From Sphingobium sp. Z007 (GTDB lineage: Bacteria; Pseudomonadota; Alphaproteobacteria; Sphingomonadales; Sphingomonadaceae), in the NCBI RefSeq assembly GCF_900013425.1, contig NZ_FBXK01000005.1, positions 2,728,001 to 2,792,000 on the forward strand: a stretch of 64,000 nt of DNA. Direction: 5' to 3'. Below, piece after piece: positions 9,177 to 50,919 of the stretch. Position 1 is the stretch's first letter; every line of letters begins with the position of its first letter. A program made the position numbers and the translations under genes. The notes beneath the pieces were generated by a model. The model saw only the letters and a list, made by a program, of their open reading frames with translations, was not told the DNA's origin and made no database searches.

Positions 9177-9271
9177 GGGAAGCGTGGCGCGCGGTTGAGA
9201 TTGCGGAACTAGGCTCCTGCCTGCGCAGGAGCAAGAGGAGGGCAAACCCTCCCCACCATAGAGGAGGATCG

Positions 9272-12562: not shown

Positions 12563-12632
12563 CGCGCTTCGTCTCCCTGCCAAATCCTGACGCTATTTAA
12601 GGATGCTTTGCCGCGCGCCGCAAGGGCGCGGT

Positions 12633-35005: not shown

Positions 35006-36425
35006 GCGCAGCAAAAAGCGAGGAACAGGGAGGGGGATTGCGGTCTCCTTGTTGGCATTGGGCCTGTCCGCCTGCGCGACCGCGGGGCCGGATTATCGGT
35101 CGCCTGAACAATCCGCCGCCACCGCGCCCGCCGCGACCGGGGCGTTTCATTCGGCGCAGGGCGGACCCTATAGCCACGCAGACCTGCCGGATCATTGGTG
35201 GCGGCTTTATGCCGATCCGCAGCTCGACGGCCTGATCGAACAGGCGCTGGCCGCCAATACCGACCTGCGCCAGGCCGACGCCAATCTGGCCCAGGCGCAG
35301 GCGGTGCTGCGCGAGGCGGAGGCCGGGCGCGCGATCACGACCGGGATCAGCGGCGGGGCGACGCTGTCGCGCCCGTCCAGCACCGGATATAGCCTGCCGG
35401 GCGTGGTCGGCTATGATCTGGGCCTGTCCGCCAGCTATCCGCTCGACCTCAATGGCCGGATCAAGCGCGCGATCGAGGCGAGCGGCGCGGAAGTGGAGGC
35501 GAGCGCCGCGGCGCGCGACTATGTGCGGGTCAGCGTCGCGGCGGCGACGGCGCGCGCCTATGCGCAGGTGTGCGCGGCCAATTACAGCCTGGGCGTCAAC
35601 CGGCGGGTGGTGGCGTTACAGCGCGATACGCTGACCGCGACGCAGCGGCTGGCCAGAGGCGGGCGCGGCACCGCCTTCGACGTCAGCCGGGCGCAGGCGG
35701 CGGTGGACAGCAGCGCGGCCGCTCTGCCCGCGTTCGAGGCGCAACGGCAGAATGGGCTGTATTTGCTGGCGACATTGCTGGGGCGGCCGCCGGCCGATTA
35801 TCCGCGCGCGATGGAGAGTTGCGCGGCGCTACCGGCGTTGCGGGCGCCGCTGCCGGTGGGGGATGGCGCAGCGCTGATCCGGCGGCGGCCCGACATCCGG
35901 CAGGCCGAACGCGCGATCGCAGCGGATACCGCACGTCTGGGGGTGGCGACCGCCGACCTCTATCCACAGGTCAGCATCGGCGGGTCGGTCGGCCTGTCCG
36001 GGCCGCTCAAGGATCTGGGGTCGGGTACGGCCTTCGGCTTCAGCCTGGGACCACTGATCAGTTGGAGCTTCCCCAACCGGCCGGTGGTGCGGGCGCGGAT
36101 CGCGCAGGCCGATGCGACGGTGCAGGGCGACCTGGCCGGGTTCGACGGGACCGTGCTGGAGGCATTGCGCCAGACCGAGACGGCGCTGGAGACCTACCGC
36201 CGCGATGCCGAGCGGGCAGCGGCGCTGGACCGGGCGCGGGACAGCGCGGCGCTATCGGCGGCCCAGGCGGGCAAGCTGTTCCGATTCGGCCGGGGCGATT
36301 TCCTGTCGCTGCTGGACGCGCAGCGGAGTCTGGCGAGCGCGGAGGTTACGGCGGCGGCGGCGCGGACGCAGCTGGTGCAGGACCAGATTGCAATCTTTCT
36401 GGCGCTGGGGGGCGGTTGGGCGTGA
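34998..36425 (+). CDS. NodT-family outer-membrane efflux lipoprotein
   Basis: A 475-residue protein with a lipoprotein signal ending 'LALGLSACATAGPDYRSPE' (lipobox LSAC). Two repeated outer-membrane-efflux domains are visible ('LIEQALAANTDLRQADANLA' and 'LIRRRPDIRQAERAIAADTA'; 'FRFGRGDFLSLLDAQRSLAS'). It supplies the exit duct for the FUSC/HlyD pump. The ATG at 34998 is chosen for its overlap and the signal sequence. Confidence 0.93.
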   Translation: MGERSKKRGTGRGIAVSLLALGLSACATAGPDYRSPEQSAATAPAATGAFHSAQGGPYSHADLPDHWWRLYADPQLDGLIEQALAANTDLRQADANLAQAQAVLREAEAGRAITTGISGGATLSRPSSTGYSLPGVVGYDLGLSASYPLDLNGRIKRAIEASGAEVEASAAARDYVRVSVAAATARAYAQVCAANYSLGVNRRVVALQRDTLTATQRLARGGRGTAFDVSRAQAAVDSSAAALPAFEAQRQNGLYLLATLLGRPPADYPRAMESCAALPALRAPLPVGDGAALIRRRPDIRQAERAIAADTARLGVATADLYPQVSIGGSVGLSGPLKDLGSGTAFGFSLGPLISWSFPNRPVVRARIAQADATVQGDLAGFDGTVLEALRQTETALETYRRDAERAAALDRARDSAALSAAQAGKLFRFGRGDFLSLLDAQRSLASAEVTAAAARTQLVQDQIAIFLALGGGWA

Positions 36426-36448
36426 GGGCGGCCACACCGCTACCAACT

Positions 36449-36567
36449 CCGTTCGTGCTGAGTAGGGGCTGAGCGAAGTCGAAGACCCGTATCGAAGCAT
36501 CATACGCTGTGCATGATCCTTCGATACACCATTTCGACTTCGCTCAATGGCTACTCAGGACGAACGG
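36449..36567. repeat. REP-like paired inverted repeat
   Basis: Two arms of about 49 bases (36449-36497 and 36519-36567) are inverted copies with a few differences. Outer ends are CCGTTCGT and the cores GAGCGAAGTCGAA, related to the elements at 8337 and 56487. It lies between the stops of the convergent NodT and bamE genes and may double as a terminator. Confidence 0.8.
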
Positions 36568-36588
36568 AAATATTAGGATTCATTTGAA

Positions 36589-37104
36589 TTAGCTGCCGTT
36601 GGGGCCGCCGCCGGTGTTGCTGCCGCCGCCACCGCCGCCCATGCCGCCAGCGCCGACCGCACCGATATTGCCGAAAATCTCGTCGAACAGGCTGCGGTTG
36701 CGGCCCAGCGTCGGGGTCTTGTCGCCCATGGGCGAGATATTGGCGACCTGGTCAAGCCCCATGCGATCGACCGCCGCGACATTGCCCGCGCCATCGAAGC
36801 GGACGCGCAGCACGGTCTGCTCCACAGGCTTTGGATTGGCGAAGGCCAGCGCGCGCATTTCGCGCGAGACATAATACCAGTCCTGCTCGCCAAATTGCGA
36901 GATGAAGCTGGGACGGCCCAGCGTCCCTTCCACCGAGGCGCGATTGTCGATGCCGGGCTGGACCGAATCGACCAGCAGCTTGTCGATCGAATAGCCCTGA
37001 TGCGTGCGAATGCGGGTACAGCCAGACGCGCCCAGCACCAGCGCGCTGAGGCCGATCGCGAGCAGGATGCGCCCGCGTGGCGAATGACGGCTGAACTGAC
37101 GCAT
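36589..37104 (-). CDS. bamE: Outer-membrane assembly lipoprotein BamE (SmpA/OmlA)
   Basis: A 171-residue lipoprotein with a signal ending 'VLGASGCTRIRTHQGYSID'. The SmpA/OmlA domain follows ('VQPGIDNRASVEGTLGRPSF', 'WYYVSREMRALAFANPK', 'LRVRFDGAGNVAAVDRM'). The tail is Gly/Ser-rich ('GGMGGGGGGSNTGGG'). BamE is part of the BAM complex that inserts beta-barrel proteins. It is divergent from the CBP3 chaperone gene. Confidence 0.92.
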   Translation of the reverse strand: MRQFSRHSPRGRILLAIGLSALVLGASGCTRIRTHQGYSIDKLLVDSVQPGIDNRASVEGTLGRPSFISQFGEQDWYYVSREMRALAFANPKPVEQTVLRVRFDGAGNVAAVDRMGLDQVANISPMGDKTPTLGRNRSLFDEIFGNIGAVGAGGMGGGGGGSNTGGGPNGS

Positions 37105-37265
37105 GAACTTCTCCTGCGGGGGGCGACCCGCGAACCCAAGAAACTGATGTCGCCATTGCATTGGGCGACGCAGCGATCAATATGGAAATGCGCAAGCCCC
37201 GGCAAGGGGCGCAAAATATCGGACGGCGCGTCGCCATCCGATCCGTCACGAAAAGCTGTTGTCCG

Positions 37266-37790
37266 ATGTCCGCTTCCCCGTCCTTCCTTCAGCGCCTGTT
37301 TGGCCGCACTGATCCCAAGGAGGGGCTACGGCCGCTCTATAACGCCGTGATCCAGGAGGGACGGCAGCCGCACTGGTATGTCGAGGGCGCCGTGCCCGAT
37401 ACGATAGACGGGCGGTTCGACATGATCGTCGCGATCCTGGCGCAGCTGCTGATCCGGCTGGAACAGCAGGATGGCCCGCAGGAGAGCGTATGGCTGACCG
37501 AATTGTTCGTGGACGACATGGACGGGCAGTTGCGGCAGGAAGGGATTGGCGACGTGGTGGTCGGCAAACATGTCGGGCGGATGATGAGCGCGCTGGGCGG
37601 ACGCATCAGCGCCTATCGCGCGGCCTTGAACGGGACGGCCGATCTGAACGATGCGTTGCGACGCAATCTCTATCGCGGCGTTGATGTCGATGACGCGGCG
37701 GTCGCCCATGTCGAAGGCGCGCTGCGGGCGCGCTGGACGCGGCTGGGCTGCGTTTCGCGCGACGCGCTGCTGCGAGGAGATATCGGATGA
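37266..37790 (+). CDS. Ubiquinol-cytochrome c chaperone family protein (CBP3-like)
   Basis: A 174-residue protein with the family pattern 'LRPLYNAVIQEGRQPHWYVE', 'DTIDGRFDMIVAILAQLLIR', 'LTELFVDDMDGQLRQEGIGD' and 'VGKHVGRMMSALGGRISAYR'. Homologues (UPF0174/CBP3) assist assembly of the cytochrome bc1 complex. It overlaps the yceD gene by four bases, a common pairing in alphaproteobacteria. Confidence 0.9.
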   Translation: MSASPSFLQRLFGRTDPKEGLRPLYNAVIQEGRQPHWYVEGAVPDTIDGRFDMIVAILAQLLIRLEQQDGPQESVWLTELFVDDMDGQLRQEGIGDVVVGKHVGRMMSALGGRISAYRAALNGTADLNDALRRNLYRGVDVDDAAVAHVEGALRARWTRLGCVSRDALLRGDIG

Positions 37791-38323
37791 CCATCAACCT
37801 CAACCCCGAATTTTCGCGCACCCACAAAGTGGATCAGATCGCGCGGCTGGCGGGCAAGCTGCATATCGCGGCCAAGCAGCCGGAGCGCGACGCGCTGGCG
37901 CAGCGATTCGGGCTGTTGGCGCTCGATCGGCTGGAGGCCGATTATAGTGTCGCCACGGAGGATGGCGCGATCGTCGCACGGGGCCGGGTGCGCGCGGAGC
38001 TGGCGCAACCGTGCGTCGCGACCGGCGTGGCCGTGTCCGAGACGATCGACAGCGATTTCGTGCTGCGCTTCGTGGTCGAGAGCGAGGAGGCGCAGGCGGC
38101 CGACGAACTGGAGCTGGACGCGGAAGATTGCGACACGATCGGCTATGACGGCCATGTCATCGACATGGGCGAAGCGGTGGCCGAAACGATGGTGCTGGCG
38201 ATGACCCCCTTCCCCCGCGCGCCGGATGCCGACGCCTATCTGAAGGAGGCGGGCGTGCTGAGCGAGGAGCAGGCAAGTCCCTTTGCCGTGTTGCTGGGAT
38301 TGAAGGACAAGGACGCGCATTAA
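37787..38323 (+). CDS. YceD-family (DUF177) protein
   Basis: A 178-residue acidic protein with the DUF177 features 'DYSVATEDGAIVARGRVRAE', 'LAQPCVATGVAVSETIDSDF' and 'EDCDTIGYDGHVIDMGEAVA'. YceD proteins are linked to 23S rRNA maturation in plants and bacteria, usually beside rpmF, but rpmF is not here. Coupled to the CBP3 gene. Confidence 0.85.
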   Translation: MTINLNPEFSRTHKVDQIARLAGKLHIAAKQPERDALAQRFGLLALDRLEADYSVATEDGAIVARGRVRAELAQPCVATGVAVSETIDSDFVLRFVVESEEAQAADELELDAEDCDTIGYDGHVIDMGEAVAETMVLAMTPFPRAPDADAYLKEAGVLSEEQASPFAVLLGLKDKDAH

Positions 38324-38384
38324 GGGACGCGCATTACGAGTCAGGCGTTTCCCTTTCGTTCCTGTCCGTGGCATAGGATGCGCC

Positions 38385-39479
38385 ATGGACTCGGCCACGG
38401 ACCCGGCGCTGCGCAAGATCATCCATGTCGACATGGACGCCTTTTACGCGTCGGTGGAGCAGCGCGACGACCCGTCGTTGCGGGGATTGCCGATCGCGGT
38501 GGGCGGCGGCGGCCCGCGCGGCGTGGTGGCGACATGCAGTTATGAAGCGCGCAAGTTCGGGGTGCGTTCCGCCATGCCGGGCGCGCGGGCGCGGCGGTTG
38601 TGCCCGGACCTGATCTTCGTGCCGCCCCGTTTCGATGTCTATCGCGCGGTATCCGGCCATGTGCGCGAAATTTTCAGCCGCTTTACCGACATCGTCCAGC
38701 CGCTCTCGCTCGACGAAGCCTATCTGGACGTGACGGTGAACAAGCCGGGGATCGCTTCGGCGACGCAGATCGCGCAGGAGATACGGCGGATGATCCGGGC
38801 GGAAACCGGCCTGACCGCGTCGGCCGGCGTGTCCTACAACAAGCTGATCGCCAAGCTGGCGTCGGACCAGAACAAGCCCGACGGCGTGTGCGTGGTGCGG
38901 CCGAGCGAGGGGCCGGCCTTCATCGCGGCGATGCCGGTGCGGCGCATCCATGGCGTGGGGCCAGTGACGGCGAAGCGGATGCAGGCGCTGGGGATCGAGA
39001 CGGGCGCGGATTTGCGGGCGCGCGACCTGCGTTTTCTCCAGACGCATTTCGGCAGTGCCGCCGACTATTATTATCGCGCGGCGCGGGCGCAAGACGACCG
39101 GCCGGTGCGCGAGCGCGAGGGACGCAAGTCGGTGAGCGTCGAGGATACCTTCTTCGACGATCTGGTCGAGGAGGCGGCGCTGGTCGCGGAGATCGAGCGG
39201 ATCGCGGCCAGCCTGTGGACCCGGATCGAGAAGGCGCAGGCCTGGGGCCGGACCGTAGTGTTGAAGGTGAAATTCGCCGATTTCCGCATCATCACCCGAT
39301 CGCGCAGTTTTTCCACGCCGGTGCGGTCGGCCGATTTGCTGGCGCAGGCGGGGCGGGAATTACTGGTCGCGCAACTGCCGCTGCGCATGGGCGTGCGGCT
39401 GTTGGGGTTGGGGGTGCATAATCTGGAAGGCGAGGAAGAGGAGGAGGCGCAGGCTGGGCAGTTGGCTTTGGGGTTGTAG
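38385..39479 (+). CDS. dinB: DNA polymerase IV
   Basis: A 364-residue Y-family polymerase for lesion bypass. Catalytic motifs: 'IHVDMDAFYASVEQRDDPSL' (metal-binding Asp), 'FTDIVQPLSLDEAYLDVT' (second acidic pair) and 'GVSYNKLIAKLASDQNKPDG' (thumb/palm). The little-finger domain follows. The extreme C-terminus lacks a clear clamp-binding QL[SD]LF box ('AGQLALGL' is a possible variant). A bidirectional terminator follows. Confidence 0.96.
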   Translation: MDSATDPALRKIIHVDMDAFYASVEQRDDPSLRGLPIAVGGGGPRGVVATCSYEARKFGVRSAMPGARARRLCPDLIFVPPRFDVYRAVSGHVREIFSRFTDIVQPLSLDEAYLDVTVNKPGIASATQIAQEIRRMIRAETGLTASAGVSYNKLIAKLASDQNKPDGVCVVRPSEGPAFIAAMPVRRIHGVGPVTAKRMQALGIETGADLRARDLRFLQTHFGSAADYYYRAARAQDDRPVREREGRKSVSVEDTFFDDLVEEAALVAEIERIAASLWTRIEKAQAWGRTVVLKVKFADFRIITRSRSFSTPVRSADLLAQAGRELLVAQLPLRMGVRLLGLGVHNLEGEEEEEAQAGQLALGL

Positions 39480-39535
39480 GGGCGCCCCGTGCCCACCCCG
39501 CTGCGACTAACGCGCTACGCGCATAAGTCTCGCTG

Positions 39536-39562
39536 CCCCTCCCGCGAGCGGGAGGGGTGTTT
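39536..39562. terminator. Strong hairpin terminator between dinB and eipA
   Basis: CCCCTCCCG and CGGGAGGGG pair around CGAG (39536-39557), followed by TGTTT. It separates convergent genes. The sequence is also a common sphingomonad intergenic motif. Confidence 0.75.
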
Positions 39563-39570
39563 ATCGGCGT

Positions 39571-40377
39571 TTAGAAAGGCAGCCAGGTGCGCTTTTCGCT
39601 GAACTTCATATAGCCGGCATTGACGCCGAGGCGGTAGCCGACACCGAGGCGTATGGGGATCAGCACGACATTGCCCCAGCGCAGATAGGAGGCGGTGAAG
39701 CCGCCGACCAGATAGGCCGTGCCCTCCGCGGCGGGGAAGCGGTGATAGAGATCCTGGGTGTCGTAGAGATTATAGACCAGGACGAAGGTGTTAGCCGCGT
39801 TGCCGCCGACGTCGAAGCCGATCGACGGACCGGTCCAATAGACTTCGCGCTTGCCCTCCACCTTATGGTTGAGCGTGCCCGACCCATAGCGCAGGCCGAC
39901 GACAAAGGCGCCCGACGCTTCGCGCCCGGAAATATAGGCATTGGGACGGCCTTGATCCTTCAGCACCTTTTCGATGAGGCCGGCGAGGCCTTCGGCGCCC
40001 TTGCCGAATACCCCTTCGGCCGCGCCGATCAGGTCGTCTTCCTGATAGGAGTCGGCGGGCGGGAGAGCGGCGGGCGGCGAGTTGGGCGTGACCGGCGCGC
40101 CGGTGGCGGTGTTGCCGGTGGCGCTGCCCGCTGGGGCTTCATAGGGGGCGACGCCTGGGCTGACGCCTTGATCGACGCTGCTGTCGACGCCGGGATCGGT
40201 GGGCGTCGTATTGGCGGGCGGCGGCGGCGCGAGGTCGGAATCGATCGCGGTGTTGGGATCGATCGTCTTGACCTGCGCTGTGGCCGCGAGCGGCGTCAGC
40301 GCCATGCCCGCCAGCGCCGCGACCAGCGCCATAGCGCGCGTGATGCGGCCGCCCGTCTGCCCTTTGATGCCGATCAT
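39571..40377 (-). CDS. eipA: Envelope integrity protein EipA (DUF1134)
   Basis: About 268 residues from the ATG at 40377. A Sec signal (ITRAMALVAALAGMALTPLA-ATAQ) is followed by a Pro/Ala/Thr-rich linker of about 90 residues and the DUF1134 domain: 'NAYISGREASGAFVVGLRYG', 'VYWTGPSIGFDVGGNAANTF', 'YLVGGFTASYLRWGNVVLIP'. Brucella EipA is a periplasmic beta-barrel protein needed for envelope integrity. The long Pro-rich linker is unusual in length compared with the minimal family form. Confidence 0.9.
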   Translation of the reverse strand: MIGIKGQTGGRITRAMALVAALAGMALTPLAATAQVKTIDPNTAIDSDLAPPPPANTTPTDPGVDSSVDQGVSPGVAPYEAPAGSATGNTATGAPVTPNSPPAALPPADSYQEDDLIGAAEGVFGKGAEGLAGLIEKVLKDQGRPNAYISGREASGAFVVGLRYGSGTLNHKVEGKREVYWTGPSIGFDVGGNAANTFVLVYNLYDTQDLYHRFPAAEGTAYLVGGFTASYLRWGNVVLIPIRLGVGYRLGVNAGYMKFSEKRTWLPF

Positions 40378-40524
40378 GCCCGATACTCCCCGAAAAACCC
40401 GCTTCCTAGTCATCATAGGGCATTGCGACCCGCAAGCTGAAACGACAATGAACGAACGGCGACACGAGTCGATTCCGCGCCGGAACGAAAGCGCGGAGGT
40501 TGCGAAAATTCCTGCAACAGCCCG

Positions 40525-40553
40525 TTGCCATGCCGCAAAGCCCTCGCTATAGC
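40525..40553 (+). promoter_or_regulatory. Candidate promoter of tRNA-Ser
   Basis: TTGCCA (40525-40530) and TATAGC (40548-40553) are exactly 17 bases apart, about 45 bases upstream of the mature tRNA 5' end, as expected for a sigma-70-type promoter. Confidence 0.55.
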
Positions 40554-40598
40554 CCCTGCCAGCCATTGCTCTCCTGTCTGGGTGGGCAAATTTCGTGC

Positions 40599-40690
40599 GG
40601 AGACGTGGGTGAGTGGCTGAAACCAGCGGTTTGCTAAACCGTCGTGGCCTTAAGGGGCCACCGAGGGTTCGAATCCCTCCGTCTCCGCCA
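40599..40690 (+). tRNA. tRNA-Ser(GCT)
   Basis: 92 bases with a 7-bp acceptor stem (GGAGACG with CGTCTCC), anticodon GCT at 40633-40635 inside TTTGCTAAA, a long variable arm typical of tRNA-Ser, a GGTTCGAATCC T-arm and an encoded CCA end. Its 3' end is the attachment site of the island to the right. Confidence 0.97.
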
Positions 40691-40694
40691 CTTT
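40669..40694 (+). repeat. attL-like direct repeat (tRNA-Ser 3' end)
   Basis: 26 bases, from the T-arm through CCA and CTTT, are repeated identically at 45141-45166. The tRNA is left complete on this side, as in most tRNA-targeted integrations. Confidence 0.85.
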
Positions 40695-40858
40695 CTATTG
40701 TTTTTGCTGGATAATTTTCGCTTCGGCGAAACTATGCCCATTTCTATGCCCACTATCTAAATGGTAGTTAGCGAACAGCGGCAGCCCGAACATCTGGTCA
40801 CCGAGCGCAACAGATATTTCTAACCTCCAAAATTTGCGTGGCCGAGTGAGCGTTATTA

Positions 40859-41182
40859 TCATAGCGCTCGTATACGCGAACTGAGCGAATCAACAGTCTG
40901 GTAGCACTCCCAGTCATTCTTAAGACTGTGCATCCAAGCTCGTCGAAGACAGCGGGTATTTTTATCCAAGCTGTAGATATAGTGTATAATGAATGACTTG
41001 CACGAAGCGGGCAAAAAGGACTTCCTTAAACCGAAACGGCGACCGGCTACCTCAAGCGCGGCGCTTACATGCTCATATGTGTGTATCTTGACGCAGGATA
41101 CGGGCGTAACATCATACGCGTAGTCGAAAAAGATAACCGTGTGCCAAGGCGAGGCCCCTCGTTCGAGCAGAACCCCTTTCAT
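40859..41182 (-). CDS. Unrecognised island ORF, 107 aa
   Basis: The protein starts 'MKGVLLERGASPWHTVIFFD' and contains 'YDVTPVSCVKIHTYEHVSAA' and 'FIIHYIYSLDKNTRCLRRAW'. It has no signal peptide and no motif I recognise. Codon usage is less GC-rich than the chromosome, fitting foreign DNA. It overlaps the rightward ORF at 41069 by 114 bases on the opposite strand, so at most one of them is likely to be real in the overlap. Confidence 0.35.
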   Translation of the reverse strand: MKGVLLERGASPWHTVIFFDYAYDVTPVSCVKIHTYEHVSAALEVAGRRFGLRKSFLPASCKSFIIHYIYSLDKNTRCLRRAWMHSLKNDWECYQTVDSLSSRIRAL

Positions 41183-41590
41183 TGGGGGCTGTGGGCCATG
41201 TTCATCAATGATAGCGTCATTGGTAAGGACGAGCGGTGGCTATTTGCAAGCCAGATCCTGTACGCCTTTCGGAACAATGTGCCCGAGCATTTTTTGGCCG
41301 GGTTTCTATATCAACTTGGGAAAACGCAGAAAATCTTAATTATGTGCGTTCAGATCGACGGGACCCTTGGCCTGCTGCCGCCGCACAACAGGGAGGGGAA
41401 TGATTTGGTACTGCGCTTAGCTGCACCAGAATGGTATTCCCCCATGGAGGCCATACAAGTCGTGGAACACCACCCGGTCAGTTGGCAATTTAATTGCGTG
41501 GAAACCGCGATAGACCTGCCTTTGCATCCCTCAATTTGTGTCACGAACCATACGTCATACACGGTCGACATTTCGGTAAAGGCATTTTGA
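41069..41590 (+). CDS. Unrecognised island ORF, 173 aa (possible 5' part of a frameshifted gene)
   Basis: The frame has an ATG at 41069 and later ones at 41198 and 41342. Composition is protein-like in the middle ('SFEQNPFHWGLWAMFINDSV', 'RWLFASQILYAFRNNVPEHF', 'LRLAAPEWYSPMEAIQVVEH'). It ends at 41590, where the next rightward frame (41494-41817) remains open and looks equally protein-like. This suggests one longer gene of about 250 residues broken by a frameshift near 41560-41590. No family recognised. Confidence 0.4.
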   Translation: MLICVYLDAGYGRNIIRVVEKDNRVPRRGPSFEQNPFHWGLWAMFINDSVIGKDERWLFASQILYAFRNNVPEHFLAGFLYQLGKTQKILIMCVQIDGTLGLLPPHNREGNDLVLRLAAPEWYSPMEAIQVVEHHPVSWQFNCVETAIDLPLHPSICVTNHTSYTVDISVKAF

Positions 41591-41817
41591 ATCTTGGCGA
41601 GAAGACCCCTGATGACCTGCGGCCCTTTCAAGAGCAATCAGGCATCATCTGCCATCAAAGGTGGCGGTTGAGGATCAAGCTCGCCGAACGATATGGCGGG
41701 TTGGCTTCGATCATCCTAAATGTCCGGTGGATGGACGAATATGCCATATTCGCAGAATTCTATGAAAATTGGTCGCTGAACTTTGATGGCGGAGGGGGTT
41801 GGACATCCACGTTATAA
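41494..41817 (+). CDS. Unrecognised island ORF, 107 aa (possible 3' part of the same gene)
   Basis: The open frame contains 'GKGILNLGEKTPDDLRPFQE', 'RWRLRIKLAERYGGLASIIL' and 'DEYAIFAEFYENWSLNFDGG', rich in aromatic and charged residues as in a folded protein. The first 30 residues overlap the 41069 frame and are probably not coding in this frame. It ends 380 bases before cas3. Function unknown. Confidence 0.35.
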   Translation: MRGNRDRPAFASLNLCHEPYVIHGRHFGKGILNLGEKTPDDLRPFQEQSGIICHQRWRLRIKLAERYGGLASIILNVRWMDEYAIFAEFYENWSLNFDGGGGWTSTL

Positions 41818-42197
41818 ATGGCCGGCCCTAACTCTTACCGCAGCTACCATGACATGCCGACGCTGTCGCAGCAGCCGGTGGCAGGACTGTCGTTGGTCAA
41901 ATAACTGACAAACACGTGGGGCGTCCCTCCGGACGCTCCACCATGCAATGAGAAAACGACCCTTGCCGGACGCTCGGCGCTCCATTCAGATCCTCAGTTG
42001 CAGACGGTCGGCTATCGCATCGCTTCATGGCAAATGTCGGTGCCACGTCGGACAGGAGATCTTCGACAATTCGTAGCGATGGGGGGAAGAATGTACGTCA
42101 CCACGACGGTGGATGACAAAGTCCGTCACGATCGCAATGCCGCTGGACAAGGGGCGGTAAGTCGCGATTGTGGCCAGCAGCGCTGGGGGGGAGCGAG
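41818..42197. other. Non-coding stretch upstream of cas3
   Basis: About 380 bases with no supported gene. It holds an 11-bp hairpin (41916-41926 with 41931-41941, GTGGGGCGTCC/GGACGCTCCAC, one G-T pair, CTCC loop) without a T-run, and presumably the promoter of the cas operon. No integrase or cas fragment is visible. Confidence 0.4.
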
Positions 42198-43043
42198 ATG
42201 GCCAAATATGCGCATTCGCTGGAGGACAGGCCGGAAACCGATTGGGAACCGCTGGCGCATCATCTTTCCAACGTCGGCGATCGGGCCGCAGGATTTGCCG
42301 CGCCCTTTGGTGCCTCCACATTGGCGCTGGCCATGGGCTTGTTGCACGACATCGGCAAATGTTCGGCTGCCTATCAGACTTATATCCGCAAGGGCCGCTT
42401 GCCCGGCGGGCTGAAGGGACCGGACCATAGCAGCGCAGGCGCACAGCAATCCTGCGCCCTCTATGGCACCGGGCTGGGCCGCCTGATGGCCTTTGGCATT
42501 GCGGGCCACCATAGCGGCCTGATGGATGGCGACGGCCATGGCGCGAGCGACCTCAACGGGCGACTGAGCAAGAAACTGGAGCCGCATGACGATTGGCGCG
42601 ACCATGTCATCGACCTGCCTGCCGCCGCCGAGTTGCACGCCAGCATCGCGCCCCCCAGGGTCAATGCCATCGACCGCAGCTTTTCCGCCGCCTTCCTGCC
42701 CCGCATGCTGTTTTCCGCACTGGTCGACGCCGACTTCCTCGAAACCGAAGCCTTCTATGCCCAGGCCAACGGAGAAGAACCACCGCCGCGCGGCGGCACG
42801 CTGACGGCCCGTCATCGCGACACGGTCCGCGCCTTCCTTGCCCGCCATCGCAGGGCTGATACGCCGGTCAACAAACTGCGCTCCGACATATTGGACCATG
42901 TCAATGGCAAAGCCGCGTTGCCGCCGGGGCTATTCACCCTGACCGTGCCGACAGGCGGCGGCAAGACGCTGACATCGCTTAGCTTTGCGATGGAACATGC
43001 CCTGGCCCATGGCTTGGCGCGGATCATCTACGTTATCCCCTTC
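42198..43043 (+). pseudogene. cas3: Truncated type I-C cas3 (HD nuclease and start of helicase only)
   Basis: About 282 residues of Cas3 remain, with a GGGGGGA ribosome site before the ATG. The N-terminal HD nuclease domain looks complete: an early His ('AHSLED', 'LAHHLSNVGDRAAGFAAPFG'), the HD pair in 'MGLLHDIGKCSAAYQTYI', 'FGIAGHHSGLMDGD' and 'MLFSALVDADFLETEAFY'. The helicase begins with Walker A 'TVPTGGGKTLTSLSFAMEHA' and continues to 'RIIYVIPF'. At 43041-43043 it changes abruptly into a CRISPR repeat; a normal Cas3 would have several hundred more residues. The frame runs on through the array to a stop at 43157, giving a chimeric tail. Confidence 0.92.
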
Positions 43044-44868
43044 GCGGAGGCGTGGATCGAAACTTCAAGAAGCCCGACAAGGAGCATGACTGGAAGTCGC
43101 CTCGTCGCCTCCCACGCGGAGGCGTGGATCGAAACTTCCCGCCCGCTGCAAACATAGACCGTCGCATCAGTCGCCTCCCACGCGGAGGCGTGGATCGAAA
43201 CCCATTGTTGGCGAAACCGTCAATGCGGGCCGCCGCGCCGGTGTCGAGTCGCCTCCCACGCGGAGGCGTGGATCGAAACAAGGTGCAGGTCAAGACTGTA
43301 GCCGGGGCGAACGTCGCCTCCCACGCGGAGGCGTGGATCGAAACTGGGAACACGGCACGCGCCCGAACTGGACCACATGTCGCCTCCCACGCGGAGGCGT
43401 GGATCGAAACGAGATGATAGGTGCCAGGAGGGAGCGGAGCGTCGCGTCGCCTCCCACGCGGAGGCGTGGATCGAAACATACCACCAACCGTTGCGGCTGT
43501 CATCGACAAGCGGGTCGCCTCCCACGCGGAGGCGTGGATCGAAACGCTTTATCCTTGGACGGATGAATTCACTGAACCGGTCGCCTCCCACGCGGAGGCG
43601 TGGATCGAAACATCGTCGAGCAGCACCGGAAGCGGCTCGCAACCTGTCGCCTCCCACGCGGAGGCGTGGATCGAAACCACCGGGGAGCGCGGTGAGGGTC
43701 GGGGCCATGGTGTCGCCTCCCACGCGGAGGCGTGGATCGAAACGATATCGTCGCGACGTTGCACTTGGGTTACGGGCGTCGCCTCCCACGCGGAGGCGTG
43801 GATCGAAACGTCACCGCCGTCGATCTGTCGCGCCTACCAGCGCGTCGCCTCCCACGCGGAGGCGTGGATCGAAACGTTACCCTCCCGACGGCGACGCTAC
43901 GGCGCCGCTGTCGCCTCCCACGCGGAGGCGTGGATCGAAACATCGTCGAGCAGCACCGCAGGCGACCCGCCACCTGTCGCTTCCCACGCGGAGGCGTGGA
44001 TCGAAACCCATATCCCACCGGCTCGCCCCGGCAGTCCCCCAGTCGCCTCCCACGCGGAGGCGTGGATCGAAACTCTGCTGGGACTTCATCTATCAGCAAT
44101 CGACTGGTAGTCGCCTCCCACGCGGAGGCGTGGATCGAAACCGAACCCGCTTAATATAGCGGGTGACCTCTTCGGGTCGCCTCCCACGCGGAGGCGTGGA
44201 TCGAAACCGACGGCGACGCTACGGCGCCGCTACATGCAGGAGTCGCCTCCCACGCGGAGGCGTGGATCGAAACATTGACGGGTCTTGCATCGTAGGTGGC
44301 GATGACCGTCGCCTCCCACGCGGAGGCGTGGATCGAAACAAGAACAAGCCGATCCCCGACCTGGCGAAGGAGGTCGCCTCCCACGCGGAGGCGTGGATCG
44401 AAACGCTGGGCAAGCGGGAGACTGCTCGTATCACGACCGTCGCCTCCCACGCGGAGGCGTGGATCGAAACCTGGTGGGCGCTCAGTTCGCCGTTGCCCTT
44501 GCGGGTCGCCTCCCACGCGGAGGCGTGGATCGAAACTGCGAATAAACCCTCCACACCCAGAGAGCCACCCGGTCGCCTCCCACGCGGAGGCGTGGATCGA
44601 AACTTGTCCTGATCGTGCTGGGCATCGCCATCGTGGCGTCGCCTCCCACGCGGAGGCGTGGATCGAAACGCAATATCGGCCTGGGCAAAGTCCGCGCTGG
44701 CGAGTCGCCTCCCACGCGGAGGCGTGGATCGAAACCCCATCACCTGCAATGTCACCGCGGCGCCAACGGTGGTCGCCTCCCACGCGGAGGCGTGGATCGA
44801 AACCTTACCGCCCAGCCGATCAAAGCTGTCCGGGTCGTCGCCTCCCACGCGGAGGCGTGGATCGAAAC
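43032..44868 (+). CRISPR. Type I-C CRISPR array, 27 spacers, first repeat half-destroyed
   Basis: There are 27 intact 32-base repeats (first at 43104-43135, last at 44837-44868) plus a partial one at 43032-43063 in which only the last 21 bases match. The repeat starts GTCGCCTCCCACGCGG and ends GCGTGGATCGAAAC, with a GCCTCC/GGAGGC stem, as in type I-C. One repeat (43976-44007) has a C-to-T change at base 6. Most spacers are 33-36 bases; spacer 1 (43064-43103) is 40 and spacer 3 (43202-43247) is 46. Transcription is expected rightward, so the leader should lie to the left, but cas3 coding sequence is there instead. Confidence 0.98.
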
Positions 44869-45140
44869 ACCTAGTGCGACGCGCCCCGCGGGTCGTGATC
44901 CGAAGGTACAGCCCTCCGCCGTCCGATGTCGACCCGGCTCCTTCAAGGCCGAAACCGCCCTCGCCGTTAATATGTTGATCGCCCGCGCCATGATATTACT
45001 TCCCAATACTCATGGCCCACTATGCCCACTTTCAACTTGGCATGAAGCGGTCTGTGGCGAATAACGGCGGACGATGAATACCTATAAACCTCAATATAAT
45101 GGCCATTTTCTGATAAATGATCGCGAGATTCCGAAATGGG
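44869..45140. other. Non-coding stretch between the array and the right attachment site
   Basis: 272 bases with no supported gene. The right part is AT-rich. It contains GGCCCACTATGCCCAC at 45014-45029, a motif also found just inside the left end of the island (40735-40757). Confidence 0.4.
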
Positions 45141-45166
45141 TCGAATCCCTCCGTCTCCGCCACTTT
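45141..45166 (+). repeat. attR-like direct repeat (copy of tRNA-Ser 3' end)
   Basis: Identical to 40669-40694 over 26 bases, with no tRNA 5' part upstream. It marks the right end of the island. Confidence 0.85.
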
Positions 45167-45182
45167 TCATAGGTTCCGCGCG

Positions 45183-45734
45183 TTGATCCGACCCCGCTTC
45201 GGCACCTTTCGCGGGCTTGTCCGCCTCGCCCTTTCCTATCCCCAGCTGTGGCTCGGCCGGTCGGGCAGCCGCGCGCCTGATCCCGCGCAGGTTCGGCGGC
45301 TGGTGTTCGTGTGCCAGGGCAATATCTGCCGCAGCGCCTTTGCCGATGTCGCAGGTCGGCGTGCGGGGCTGAACACCGCGTCCTTCGGCCTGTCCACCAC
45401 CACCGGGCGGGCCGCGCATGACGCCGCGATCGTCGCGGCGCGGGCAATGGGCCATGACCTGTCGGACCATAGGGCGATCGACCTGAAGGATTATGCACCG
45501 CAGGACGGCGACCTGTTGCTGGCGATGGAGGTGCGGCAATTGCATCGGCTGGCGGCCGATCCGCGCCTGTCCGGCCTGCCGCGGGTGTTGCTGGGGCGCT
45601 GGACGCGGCCGATGCTGCCGCATCTGCACGATCCCTATGGGCTGGACGATCGCTATATGGCGACCTGTCTGCGCCGCATCGACCGGGCGGTGCCCGGATT
45701 GGTCAGCGCCTTTCCCGGCGCACGGCTTTCCTGA
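45183..45734 (+). CDS. Low-molecular-weight protein tyrosine phosphatase family protein
   Basis: About 183 residues if started at the TTG at 45183. The P-loop 'FVCQGNICRSAFADV' has the CX5R signature, and the general-acid loop is 'LPHLHDPYGLDDRY'. LMW-PTPs dephosphorylate tyrosine, often regulating polysaccharide-export kinases. The island end lies 16 bases upstream. The frame is also open to an ATG at 45117 inside the island, so the present start may differ from the ancestral one. The 3' end overlaps the convergent ATP-grasp gene by 32 bases. Confidence 0.85.
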   Translation: MIRPRFGTFRGLVRLALSYPQLWLGRSGSRAPDPAQVRRLVFVCQGNICRSAFADVAGRRAGLNTASFGLSTTTGRAAHDAAIVAARAMGHDLSDHRAIDLKDYAPQDGDLLLAMEVRQLHRLAADPRLSGLPRVLLGRWTRPMLPHLHDPYGLDDRYMATCLRRIDRAVPGLVSAFPGARLS

Positions 45735-46917
45735 CCATCTGCGCCATGTCGCGCAGCCAGGGTCGCATGTCCGTGGCGCTGAAGACATAATAGCGCGCGC
45801 GCGGATCGAAGAAGGCGAGCAGGTAGCTGGCGAGGTCGTGCAGCGGGCGACGCCGGAAGAAAGGGGCACCGATGCGGCCGGGCGCCAGCAGGATGCGCCC
45901 CAGCCGCTTGGTTTCCGGCACCATGTAGCGCGCGCGCAAGTCGTCGCGCGGCGGCGGGGCGGCGGCCGTCTGGCCCAGCACCTTGCGGCGATAGGCTTCC
46001 CAGGCGAAATGGGCGCCGCAGTGGCGCGCGAGCGGCAGGCTGCCCCAGAAGCGGCCATTGACCTCCATCAGCCAGTAGCGGTCGTTGTCCGGTTCGTAGC
46101 GATATTCGACCATCGCTTGGCCCTCCCAGTCGAGCGCCCGCAGCAGCTTTTCCGACAGCGCCATTTGCGCGCCATGGGCGGCGGCCGGTTCTGCGCGGCA
46201 CAGCGTGGATACGCCGCCTTCGGGCGGCCATTCGTGCAGGCGGCGATGCTGGAAGCGAAGCGTGGCCTGGCCATCCTGCATGTAGAGCATCTGGCCGAGG
46301 CCAACGCCGCGGCAATATTGCTGGACCAGCGGCCAGCACCCGACCGGGGCATAGCGGTCCAGCAAGGCGACCAACTGGTCGGGCGTGCGGACATAGTCGG
46401 TCTTGATCCACTCCAGGCCCGCCTGCTCCAGCACCGCCATGATTTCGGGCGGATTGGCCCATTTGGCGACGAGCGGGTAGCGCATCTGGGCGGCGCGGGC
46501 GGCGAAATCCTCGCCCGCGCGTGGTTGCCAGGTTTGCGGCACGCGCAGCCCGGCGACGGCCGCGGCGTGGAGCGTCTGCAGCTTGTCGAGCACCCGGCCC
46601 AACGGTTCGGGCCGGGGGACGAGGATATGGCAGTCGCCGATCATCGGCGGCAGGGCGGCCAGTTCGATCAGGTCCGATTCGGAAATAGCCAGCACCGCCC
46701 GCGCGCCGGTGCGGGCGATCAGGGCGGGCAGCCAATCGGCGATCGGCCCGGCCGGGCGCAGCGTCCAGTCGGCGCAATGGCGCGATACTGTCCCGATCGC
46801 GGCGGCGCTGCGGACGATGCCATGGACCGGCACGCCATGGCCGCCCAGTTCGCGCACGACCGTCAGGGCGATCGCATTTTCCAGACCTAGCAGCAGTACG
46901 CCCGGTAACGCGGTCAC
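45703..46917 (-). CDS. ATP-grasp family protein, substrate unknown
   Basis: About 404 residues with a GTG start overlapping the deacetylase stop (GTGA). The N-terminal Rossmann-like part ('ALPGVLLLGLENAIALTVVR') is followed by an ATP-grasp domain: 'RYPLVAKWANPPEIMAVLEQ', 'VQQYCRGVGLGQMLYMQDG', 'AMVEYRYEPDNDRYWLMEVN' and 'GRFWGSLPLA' (the conserved E-x-N). It resembles carboxylate-amine ligases encoded in polysaccharide clusters. Coupling to a polysaccharide deacetylase points to envelope or exopolysaccharide modification. Confidence 0.85.
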   Translation of the reverse strand: MTALPGVLLLGLENAIALTVVRELGGHGVPVHGIVRSAAAIGTVSRHCADWTLRPAGPIADWLPALIARTGARAVLAISESDLIELAALPPMIGDCHILVPRPEPLGRVLDKLQTLHAAAVAGLRVPQTWQPRAGEDFAARAAQMRYPLVAKWANPPEIMAVLEQAGLEWIKTDYVRTPDQLVALLDRYAPVGCWPLVQQYCRGVGLGQMLYMQDGQATLRFQHRRLHEWPPEGGVSTLCRAEPAAAHGAQMALSEKLLRALDWEGQAMVEYRYEPDNDRYWLMEVNGRFWGSLPLARHCGAHFAWEAYRRKVLGQTAAAPPPRDDLRARYMVPETKRLGRILLAPGRIGAPFFRRRPLHDLASYLLAFFDPRARYYVFSATDMRPWLRDMAQMVRKAVRRERR

Positions 46918-47906
46918 GCAGGGACCAGCCGATGTTCGTAACGCCAGGTCGCCCAGGCCTGCTCCGCCATGCGCAGGCCGGTGCGCCACTGGCTGGGCGC
47001 GGCGCGGCTGAGGCTCCGCGCGGGGCGGTCGGGCAGGTCGGTGGGCAGGTCGTTAAAGCCCGCGCCCTGCATGTCGGGCAAGCGCGCGGCTTCGCGGCAC
47101 AAGGCCTCGAACCGGCCCATCACGGCGCGGTTGGGGCGCTGGCGATCGCGGGAGAGCATTTCGAAACTATGGGTGACGACGATGAAAGCGTCATGCCCTT
47201 CGCCCACGGCATGACGCAGCCCGGCGCGCATTTCGGCCGCCGACATGGCGCAGATCTGGGCCGGGCGGAAACTGCCGGGGCGGTCGGCGATGCCGGAAAC
47301 GGGCAATTCGGCGACGCCTTGCAACCGGGTCGCGCCGATCTGCGCCGGGTCGGCGGTGATGGTACATTCGCGGCCGAGATAGGCGGGGTTCACGCTGCTG
47401 TCCCAGGCGACGCCAAGGGTCGCCAGCGCGCGCAACGTGTCGTCACTGGCACCGAAATTGCCGGCGCGGAAAGCGGTGATGGCGGGGGCGCCTGCATCCT
47501 CCAACAACTGCTTGGCAAGGCCGAGAAGGATGATCTGGTCGGCCAACGAGAAATCGCCGATATTGCGGCCCTGCCGACCATCGACCGGCGAATCCTTCGC
47601 CCAGGCGAGCCATTCGCTGTGAATGTGCATCTGCACTTCATGGCCCCGCCCGACGATGGCGGCCACGATCGGCGCCAGGAAATCGGCACCATGGACCAAG
47701 GCAGGCATCGGATCGAGGAAGAAGACGCCTTTGAGAGCATAGCGTTCGAGCAGGTCCATCTGCCAGCCGATGCCGTAGGCCCCGCCCTGCACTTGGCCCC
47801 AGATCGAGCGATCCACATTGTCCGCCAGACCCATGCCCCGCTGATGCAGCGAGGAGGAGAGTTCGGTGTCGACGGTGATGAGCAGCGCGGTCGTGGGGGC
47901 GGTCAT
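46914..47906 (-). CDS. Polysaccharide deacetylase (NodB-homology) family protein
   Basis: A 330-residue protein without a signal peptide. Visible: 'TALLITVDTELSSSL' (the catalytic Asp region of NodB folds), 'HEVQMHIHSEWLAWA' (HxH metal ligands), 'AFRAGNFGASDDTLRALATL' and 'AFIVVTHSFEMLS'. The WalW-like variant is typical of polysaccharide biosynthesis loci. It is upstream of and coupled to the ATP-grasp gene. Confidence 0.85.
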   Translation of the reverse strand: MTAPTTALLITVDTELSSSLHQRGMGLADNVDRSIWGQVQGGAYGIGWQMDLLERYALKGVFFLDPMPALVHGADFLAPIVAAIVGRGHEVQMHIHSEWLAWAKDSPVDGRQGRNIGDFSLADQIILLGLAKQLLEDAGAPAITAFRAGNFGASDDTLRALATLGVAWDSSVNPAYLGRECTITADPAQIGATRLQGVAELPVSGIADRPGSFRPAQICAMSAAEMRAGLRHAVGEGHDAFIVVTHSFEMLSRDRQRPNRAVMGRFEALCREAARLPDMQGAGFNDLPTDLPDRPARSLSRAAPSQWRTGLRMAEQAWATWRYEHRLVPA

Positions 47907-48053
47907 GGGGCGGTCCGGTCAGGGGGTGACAAGCCTGCAGTAGAGGTGGGGAGTTAAGGAGCAGTAATGGTTGCGCCGATGTCCTGTCGGACAACGGCCT
48001 GACGCCTCTTTCGATCCCCATGTTTCCAAGACGGCGCGGCGCACGCCATTCCT

Positions 48054-48548
48054 TCATTCCAGCAGGGAAAATTCCCCGTAATTGCCCTGGAAGAAGAGCA
48101 GCGGACTGCCCGGACGGTCCACTTCCAGCGCGACGACGCGGCCCAGCACGATATCATGATCGCCCGCTTCATGCACCGCTTCGAGCGTGCAGTCGATCCA
48201 GGCGACGACATCGTCAAGGATAGGCGAGCCGTTGGCCGATACACGATGGGCGATGCCGGCGAACTTGTCCGGGCCGGGCGCAGCGATCTGGCGGCAGAGC
48301 GGCTTCTGGTCGCTGGCGAGGACATTGACGCAGAATTTGCCGACCGCCTGGATGCGCGGCCAGCTGGTCGAGCTTTTGGCGGGGAAGAAGGCGACGAGCG
48401 GTGGGTCGAGCGAGACCGAGGTGAAGGAGCCGACCACCATGGCCACCGGCGCGCCGTCCGCCTCGACCGCGGTGACGACGCACACGCCGGTCGGATAATG
48501 GCCCAGCACACGCCGGAAGGTCGCACTGTCGAAACTGGCCATGCTCAT
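48054..48548 (-). CDS. Flavin reductase family protein
   Basis: A 164-residue FMN-binding split-barrel protein: 'FRRVLGHYPTGVCVVTAVEA', 'MVVGSFTSVSLDPPLVAFFP', 'FCVNVLASDQKPLCRQIA' and 'HDIVLGRVVALEVD'. Proteins of this type reduce flavin for a partner monooxygenase; no monooxygenase is adjacent. It is separate from its neighbours (147 and 109 bases). Confidence 0.9.
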   Translation of the reverse strand: MSMASFDSATFRRVLGHYPTGVCVVTAVEADGAPVAMVVGSFTSVSLDPPLVAFFPAKSSTSWPRIQAVGKFCVNVLASDQKPLCRQIAAPGPDKFAGIAHRVSANGSPILDDVVAWIDCTLEAVHEAGDHDIVLGRVVALEVDRPGSPLLFFQGNYGEFSLLE

Positions 48549-48657
48549 ATCTTGCTCCCGAAAGGGTCCTTAATCTCTTCGCGCGCGCAACATGCCCCCT
48601 GCAAGTGCAAGGCACACATATCCGACGGGGGGTAAACCGCAGACGGCGCGCCCCGGA

Positions 48658-50919
48658 TCAGAGCGCAACCCCGCCCGCCGCCAGCACCGCCAGTGTCAGC
48701 AATTCGGACGCATTGGACGACATGGTCGCGATCTGCACCGATTTTTCCATGCCGACCAGCACTGGCCCGATCATCGACGTGCCGCCCAGTTCGCGCAGCA
48801 GCTTGGCCGAGATATTGGCCGATTGCAGCCCCGGCATGACCAGCACGTTGGCCGGGCCGGACAGGCGGCTGAACGGATAATTTTTCATGACGGCGGGATT
48901 AAGCGCGACATCGGCGGTCATTTCGCCCTCATATTCGAAATCGACGTCGCGCTCGTCGAGCAGCTTCACCGCGCCGCGCACATTTTCCAGGAAGGCGCCG
49001 GGCGGATTGCCGAAATTGGAATAGGAGAGAAAAGCGACGCGCGGATCGACGCCCATACGGCGGGCGACCGCCACGGTGCCTTCCGCAATATCGGCCAGTT
49101 CGCTGGCGGTCGGGCGTTCGTTGACGGTGGTGTCGGCCAGGAACACGGTCTTGTCCTTGGCCACAATCACATGGATGCCGAAGGGGGTGCGACCGGCCGC
49201 CGGGTCCATCACCCGCTTCACTTCGCGCAGGGTCTGCGCATAGGGGCGGGTCATGCCGGTAATCATGGCGTCGGCCACGCCCATCTTGACCAGCAACGTG
49301 CCGAAGATGTTGCGATCGCGATTGACCATCCGCTCGCAATCGCGGCGCAGATAGCCGCGGCGCTGGAGGCGGTCGTAGAGCATGTCGACCATATCGGGCA
49401 CCAGCGGCGAATTGACGCTGTTGTGCAATTCGAAACTTTCGGGATCGCGGACGCCCAGTGCCCGAAGCTTTTCGACCACCTCGCCGCGGCCGACCAGCAC
49501 CGGGATGCCATAGCCGAGGTCACGGAACTGGATCGCCGCGCGCAGCACCACTTCCTCTTCCGCTTCGGCGAAGACAACGCGCTTGGGATTGGCCTTGGCC
49601 ACTTCATAGGCGGTGGTGAGGACGGTGGTGGTCGGGTTGAGCCGGGCCTTCAAGGACTGGCGATAGGCCGCCATGTCCGCAATCGGCTTTTGCGCGACGC
49701 CACTTTCCATCGCCGCCTGGGCGACGGCGGCGGGCACCACCTCCATCAGGCGCGGGTCGAACGGCGCGGGGATGATATAGTCCGGGCCGAAACTGTGCGA
49801 TCGGCCATAGGCCTTGGCCACTTCCTCCGGCACCTGTTCGCGTGCAAGATTGGCGATGGCGTGGGCGGCGGCCAGCTTCATCGCTTCGTTAATACCGGTC
49901 GCCCGCACATCAAGCGCGCCGCGGAAGATGAAGGGGAACCCCAGGACATTGTTGACCTGGTTGGGGAAGTCCGACCGGCCGGTGGCGACGATCACGTCCG
50001 GGCGCACGGCATGGGCGTCGGGCGGCAGGATTTCGGGATTGGGGTTGGCCATGGCGAAGATGATCGGCTTCGGCCCCATCGACTTCACCATATCCTGGGT
50101 CATCGCGCCGGCGACCGACAGACCCAGGAACACGTCCGCGCCCTTGACCGCTTCCGCCAGCGTCCGCGCGTCGGTGCGCACGGCATGGGCCGACTTCCAC
50201 TGGTTCATGCCCTCGGCGCGCCCCTGGTAGATCACGCCCTTGCTGTCGCACATGATGACATTTTCATGGGGCACGCCCAGCGCCTTGATGAGTTCGGTGC
50301 AGGAGATGGAGGCGGCGCCCGCGCCGTTCACCACCACCTTCATATCCTTCATCTCCCGCCCCGTCAGCAGCGCGGCATTGATGACGCCGGCGGCCGCGAT
50401 GATCGCGGTGCCATGCTGGTCGTCATGGAAGACCGGAATGTTCATCCGTTCTTTGAGCGTCTGTTCGATGATGAAGCATTCAGGCGCCTTGATATCCTCA
50501 AGGTTGATGCCGCCGAAGGTCGGCTCCATCAGCTCGACCGCGTCGATGAAACGATCGACATCCTCGGTCTTCAGTTCGATATCGATGCTGTCCACGTCGG
50601 CGAAGCGCTTGAAGAGGACCGCCTTGCCCTCCATCACCGGCTTGGACGCCAGCGCGCCCAGATTGCCGAGCCCCAGGATCGCCGTGCCATTGGTGATGAC
50701 CGCGACCAGATTGCCCTTGGCGGTATAATCATAGGCGCAGGCCGGGTCTTTCGCGATCGCCAGCACTGGCACCGCGACGCCGGGCGAATAAGCAAGGCTC
50801 AGGTCGCGCTGCGTCGCCATCGGTTTGGACGCGATGATCTCGATCTTGCCGGGGCGGCCGGTCGAATGGAAGAACAGCGCCTCGCGCTCGGAAAATTCCA
50901 CATGCGATCGGTCTGACAT
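48658..50919 (-). CDS. maeB: NADP-dependent malic enzyme with phosphotransacetylase-like domain
   Basis: About 753 residues. The N-terminal 430 residues are malic enzyme ('[20 protein letters not shown]', '[20 protein letters not shown]', '[20 protein letters not shown]', '[20 protein letters not shown]'). The C-terminal 320 residues are a phosphotransacetylase-like domain ('[20 protein letters not shown]'-like block near residue 590). It converts malate to pyruvate with NADPH. The fusion is standard for MaeB. It is divergent from mutS. Confidence 0.95.

Follow-up and report, generated by a model that had tools for sequence, protein, structure and literature searches.

The window analysed here, a stretch of 64,000 nucleotides from Sphingobium sp. 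Z007 (contig NZ_FBXK01000005.1, positions 2,728,001 to 2,792,000), carries a CRISPR array that lies directly against the 5′ fragment of a type I-C cas3 gene (Table 1). The reading frame of this cas3 stub is uninterrupted from its ATG at 42198, encodes the Walker A motif TVPTGGGKT, and closes on RIIYVIPF, the final codon of which is TTC (43041-43043). The stub matches the NCBIfam model of the Cas3″ HD domain above its cut-off (TIGR01596, E 5.2e-24) and two Pfam HD models below theirs. It belongs to the I-C branch of Cas3, whose members related to it precede cas5c-cas8c-cas7 operons. The letters and the translation confirm the original prediction of a cas3 frame that stays clean past Walker A as far as RIIYVIPF and then gives way to a CRISPR repeat.

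Table 1. Features at the cas3-array junction of Sphingobium sp. Z007 (positions are those of the window).
Feature	Position	Strand	Remarks
tRNA-Ser (GCT)	40599..40690	+	flank, 1.5 kb upstream of the cas3 stub
5′ fragment of type I-C cas3	42198..43043	+	282 codons, HD domain to just past Walker A, ending ...RIIYVIPF
3′ half of CRISPR repeat	43044..43063	+	bases 13-32; cas3 abuts it, with the break at the palindrome centre
First retained spacer (32 nt) and 8-nt extra repeat start GTCGCCTC (43096-43103)	43064..43103	+	40 nt
CRISPR array, without leader	43104..44868	+	27 full 32-nt repeats
Spacer 20	44340..44372	+	matched exactly in six phage or viral sequences (one phage record, five viral contigs), TTC directly 5′
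Low-molecular-weight phosphatase gene	45117..45734	+	right flank of the array

From 43044 the sequence reads GCGGAGGCGTGGATCGAAAC, which is the final 20 bases of the 32-nt repeat. Its length and its register with the array rule out a chance resemblance. The junction had been predicted to hold 21 bases of the repeat 3′ end; the 3′ end is correct and 20 of these bases are certain, while the 21st, the C at 43043, fits both sides, as the last base of cas3 or as base 12 of the repeat. The repeat is of the 32-nt GTCGCC..GGCGTGGATCGAAAC kind and contains a palindrome, as in intact I-C loci, and 26 of the 27 full copies are identical, the other having one mismatch. No leader is found ahead of the array. 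It is not necessarily the leader-proximal repeat that was cut, as leader-side repeats may also have gone. As a separate feature, the extra GTCGCCTC copy adjoins the first full repeat and stretches the first spacer to 40 nt.

An intact counterpart is present in Sphingobium lactosutens DS20 (NZ_ATDP01000110.1), the sister of Z007 in the cas3 tree (support 100/98). Here, the order is cas3-cas5-cas8c-cas7-cas4-cas1-cas2-leader-array in the same orientation as in Z007, as had been predicted for I-C loci. The products of cas5, cas8c, cas7, cas4, cas1 and cas2 all score above their NCBIfam cut-offs; the models for cas5, cas8c, cas7 and cas1 are specific to type I-C, and cas3 passes for the HD domain. 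Over the fragment, Cas3 is 86% identical to that of Z007, and the repeats differ by one base. In contrast to Z007, S. lactosutens retains operon, leader and array intact, with 6 repeats and with other spacers and flanks; a comparison of window positions 40000-46000 with the 20.8 kb that surround the locus in S. lactosutens found only a 30-nt tRNA match in common. The equivalents of the two Z007 breakpoints lie 7,151 bp apart in S. lactosutens. The intact operon in this relative and the genes missing from Z007 together support the proposal of a deletion from inside cas3 into a repeat. A second genome of the genus (G004) has the same order of open reading frames by eye and 44 repeats. The prediction named, as further support, an intact locus in a sister strain that shares the trailing spacers; no such strain was found, and among the other bacterial loci compared none carries any of the 27 Z007 spacers.

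Searches of the Z007 assembly (4.94 Mb, 99.99% complete) for the missing genes covered Cas1, Cas7 and Cas3. Neither Cas1 nor Cas7 was found in the whole genome, a full-length Cas3 query returned the stub and no second cas3 piece, and no Cascade gene (cas5, cas8c, cas7) lies between the stub and the array. A whole-genome search for the repeat (≤3 mismatches) returned only the 27 copies in the window, so there is no second array. Lacking Cas1, the array is unable to acquire spacers; lacking Cas7, it is unable to direct interference. The original description of an array frozen without adaptation or interference genes nearby therefore holds, and the search it proposed for cas1, cas7 and a matching repeat elsewhere in the genome found none. 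The locus fits the class of orphan or degenerate CRISPR loci, in that the array is without a full cas set and a cas3 stub alone stands beside it.

The loss is recent, because the frame of the stub is still open, its dN/dS is close to that of an intact pair (0.136 against the S. lactosutens cas3, as compared to 0.12), a sign of little drift, and its branch in the cas3 tree is not elongated (0.073 versus 0.15). The array also held working memory, since spacer 20 matches its targets next to a PAM. It matches five IMG/VR contigs exactly, and likewise a phage record that comes from human faecal samples; TTC is immediately 5′ in 6/6, and by this one spacer TTC is the PAM of the Z007 array. TTC is also the PAM in a type I-C system of Xanthomonas in which it was tested (PMC8406640). 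The other 26 spacers had no match in the phage collection. Two pairs of spacers resemble or overlap one another, 43612-43645 with 43942-43975 (flagged by script) and 43876-43909 with 44208-44241 (by eye), a pattern expected if related phage genes were sampled repeatedly.

Z007 is one of seven cas3-to-array fusions found in Alphaproteobacteria. The closest parallel is in Hephaestia sp. MAHUQ-44 (NZ_JAMSLX010000024.1; L040, also G1259), where TTC is followed directly by GCGGAGGCGTGGATCGAAAC, making the junction nucleotide identical to that of Z007. As in Z007, a half repeat is fused to cas3 and the array is kept (7 further, full repeats), and no other cas gene was found on the stretch examined. 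The two differ in that the Hephaestia Cas3 is only 67% identical, the spacers are its own, with none common to both, and the one Cas1 of this genome is a type II Cas1 encoded elsewhere. The Hephaestia array stops ~160 nt short of the contig end.

In the remaining five fusions, the cas3 and repeat portions vary. A Sphingopyxis MAG (L039, also G1330) has cas3 to about residue 487 and then TGCGGAGGCGTGGATCGAAAC, and G640 has a cas3 with an internal deletion and then CGGGAGCGTGGATCGGAAC. G015 retains 20 cas3 codons followed by one lone repeat from base 1, and a plasmid of Allorhizobium pseudoryzae (L160) carries cas3 to about residue 367, then a repeat from base 1, with three repeats in all. In a Caulobacteraceae MAG (L053), cas3 contains stop codons and is followed by an apparent spacer remnant (by eye) and one degenerate repeat. 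A second small array of 3 near-identical repeats (L210; NZ_CP049244.1, 325000-350000) lies on the Allorhizobium plasmid ~73 kb from the cas3 fusion, on the same strand; the surrounding 25 kb yielded no cas genes. Searches for Cas1 found none in G000, G640, G1330, G1331 or the Allorhizobium plasmid; G015 has two Cas1 pieces near contig ends.

A DNA search with the stub across 94 genomes of the genus of Z007 gave matches in 23, mostly short chance matches, and left five cas3 carriers: Z007, S. lactosutens (G025), G004, G027 and G015. The same repeat (≤3 mismatches) is present in 4/94 of these genomes, all carriers except G027. Fusions account for 2/5 cas3-bearing genomes in this genus, for 2/8 in the genus of G640 (295 genomes) and for 1/1 in that of L039 (80 genomes). 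In the samples of higher rank, which overlap with each other and with the genus samples, fusions were found in 1/12 cas3-bearing genomes of the family (397 genomes; Z007, with G100 and G345 truncated into other DNA and G395 cut by a contig end), in 2/15 of the order (396 genomes; Z007 and G640) and in 1/16 matching genomes of the class (385 genomes; Z007, by the coverage table only and leaving aside the partial matches G767, G822 and G1043). In the species-genome collection, 91 relatives were found. Among the best 80 of these 91 loci, which were scored for the operon, 72 have cas3 to at least residue 683 of 775, 2 are cut by contig ends (L086, L092), 3 are cas3-to-array fusions (L039, L040, L053) and 3 are truncated into other DNA (L093, L097, L101). 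Among plasmids, 78 records match; of the two short ones examined among the 60 matches listed, one is a fusion (H45) and one is truncated into other DNA (H50). The junction pattern was found in none of the viral contigs. Because the seven fusions come from searches with Cas3, the sample under-represents breaks in other cas genes and over-represents the query's close relatives.

A census of repeats points to the same cases. Across 203 records there are 1,120 distinct repeat 3′ ends, 11 of which lack a 5′ half; 3 of these 11 are true half repeats, namely those of Z007, Hephaestia and the Sphingopyxis MAG. The census filter required a repeat ending in GCG[TC]GGAT.GAAA. and therefore missed G640, which ends in GGAAC. 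Mirror scars, in which a 5′ half would remain, number 9 among 1,027 candidates; most resemble degenerate array ends by eye, and one or two, in L047 and L087, could be breaks near the loop (by eye).

As DNA, the Z007 repeat folds into a 7-pair hairpin with bases 10-14 in the loop and base 12 at its centre. To within ~1 base, four of the seven fusions (Z007, Hephaestia, L039 and G640) break at base 12-13; for L039 and G640 the position is accurate to ~1 base, as their native repeats were not observed intact. In simulations over the 66-bp unit, at least 4/7 breaks fell in some 2-nt window with P = 0.0017 and in some 3-nt window with P = 0.007, both calculated post hoc. The recurrence of this class of join across species, and its preference for the palindrome centre, make the repeat hairpin a probable preferred breakpoint from these four cases. 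It is not the sole one: the break is at base 1 in G015 and Allorhizobium, and in L053 it falls within a spacer. On the cas3 side, a shared nucleotide between any two of seven fusions had P = 0.009 in simulation (post hoc). Furthermore, 4/13 cas3 truncations end within ~31 nt from the IPF/IPY codon on (simulation P 0.0055, post hoc and with offsets by eye), which is only a hint of a truncation hot spot within cas3.

Taken in aggregate, these data are best read as the decay of a type I-C locus through deletion and subsequent end joining, the repeat palindrome being a likely preferred breakpoint; to this reading we assign a probability of about 75%. From direct comparison with the intact S. lactosutens locus, we infer the extent of the event as follows: a single deletion of ~7 kb or more would have run from just past codon 282 of cas3 to the palindrome centre of a repeat, removing the rest of cas3, cas5, cas8c, cas7, cas4, cas1, cas2, the leader and half a repeat. 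Any transcription of the array would now start from the former cas3 promoter. A promoter scan 5′ of the stub gave two weak sigma-70-like sites, one per strand.

The Z007 join has a microhomology of at most 1 base, and Ku is encoded in 5/6 genomes tested, Z007 included (G015 had no match). The minimal microhomology together with the presence of Ku makes non-homologous or alternative end joining the likely repair route. By analogy with published work, the driver is likely autoimmunity, selecting cells that lose cas genes (PMC3630108). In Pectobacterium, chromosomal self-targeting selects large deletions; 7 nt of homology were present at the junctions sequenced, and the authors of that study proposed alternative end joining (PMC3630108). 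Both sets of deletions are large, those of Pectobacterium being repaired at short homology; they differ in that the Pectobacterium self-targeting was engineered and affected a pathogenicity island, whereas the Z007 deletion is natural and took the cas operon itself (PMC3630108). Among 1,179 spacers, each compared with the rest of its own locus at ≤5 mismatches (36000-50000 for Z007), none is self-matching. This counts against autoimmunity, although a self-spacer would not be expected in survivors.

The same junctions could also be read as a product of the adaptation machinery. On the donor side, Cas4-Cas1-Cas2 might, with low probability, have taken a prespacer from its own cas3, cutting at the PAM boundary directly after TTC. 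On the array side, an equally doubtful step would have the repeat arms become single-stranded and the hairpin tip break, the ends being joined with deletion of the intervening DNA. Consistent with this proposal, the cas3 breaks of Z007 and Hephaestia lie immediately 3′ of TTC, the PAM of the Z007 array. The Allorhizobium junction consists of TTC, exactly 34 nt and repeat base 1; 34 nt is the most frequent spacer length in the arrays scanned (497/1,179, a set that includes some loci twice and in which lengths of 42-51 are artefacts of a short repeat consensus). Cas1-Cas2 attacks at repeat base 1, which is where G015 and Allorhizobium break. Other junctions do not fit: TTC lies 39 nt from the join in G015 and 42 nt in L039, both unusual spacer lengths, L053 has none within 45 nt, and none was seen in the stretch of G640 read by eye. 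By a rough estimate, a TTC at 0 or 33-36 nt would arise by chance at perhaps 8-10% of junctions. In addition, we know of no Cas1-Cas2 product that takes the form of a half-repeat remnant. Loss of the type I-C operon as a quasi site-specific accident of its own adaptation machinery, with operon, leader and new spacer lost together, is thus unlikely. If it were true, such an accident would have left its traces in the identical join of TTC to a half repeat in two lineages and in the TTC-34 nt-repeat join of a third.

Homologous recombination between cas3 and a cas3-derived self-spacer, deleting the DNA between them, would fit Allorhizobium, with its PAM, 34-nt protospacer and full repeat. This route must, however, leave a spacer and a full repeat, whereas Z007, Hephaestia, the Sphingopyxis MAG and G640 keep half a repeat, and the absence of any self-match among the 1,179 spacers also counts against it. 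It is ruled out at the Z007 junction, where only half a repeat is left, unless a second deletion followed, and as an account of the fusions it is very improbable.

That Z007 and Hephaestia inherited one ancestral junction through horizontal transfer is suggested by a join that agrees to the nucleotide on either side, and is still harder to sustain. In the tree, Z007 pairs with the intact S. lactosutens, whereas the Hephaestia cas3 groups with L038 and L039 (fork 91/87, drawn open). Within the last 21 cas3 bases, Z007 differs from Hephaestia at 4 positions and from S. lactosutens at 1, and these codon differences force any crossover into the final three cas3 bases; nor are any spacers shared. 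Because Hephaestia has its own codons up to the join and sits on another branch, its junction arose independently, and common origin or gene conversion is rejected on tree and codons. Finally, an assembly collapse or chimera at 43040 is scarcely credible: repeats can break assemblies and the Hephaestia array ends close to a contig end, but the Z007 array is read through within a 3.25-Mb contig and the identical junction occurs in the separate assembly of another species, and mis-assembly at the Z007 junction is rejected on these grounds.

Decay of type I-C loci also takes other forms. A truncated cas3 ends in non-CRISPR DNA in G100, G345, L093, L097, L101 and L159. The L159 stub (positions 8995-9861 of that locus, from Methylosinus trichosporium OB3b plasmid pOB3b2), annotated as Cas3″, ends ~30 nt past the same IPF codon, and the L093 cas3 ends near the same place. 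The cas3 of G100 (L142) is cut after ~84 codons, and in the decayed I-C locus L038 it is cas8c that is cut, after ~91 codons, again into non-CRISPR DNA. Solitary, shortened repeats of ~24-25 nt were also observed between cas3 and cas5 of intact I-C operons (L055 12478-12501, L060 12806-12830, L048 ~12597-12621); these may resemble Cas-regulating or CreTA RNAs and are possible guide-like cas regulators.

Orphan arrays and degenerate CRISPR-Cas loci are a known general class, with which Z007 shares an array without cas genes. It differs from them in that the scar of the loss is legible to the base and is recurrent. Among the open-access papers that literature searches listed, none describes recurrent cas3-to-repeat junctions in its title or in the opening of its abstract. 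The loss of CRISPR-Cas systems is mostly inferred from absence, whereas here the scars are base-exact, and the independent, identical join in a distant relative hints that these systems break at preferred points. If the palindrome or the PAM sites prove to be genuine hot spots, the loss of immunity would be non-random, a property of the locus itself, and laboratory strains could be used to test how fast it occurs and whether autoimmunity or adaptation errors cause it. At minimum, Sphingobium sp. Z007 provides a clean, recent case of a frozen array with its phage memory intact.
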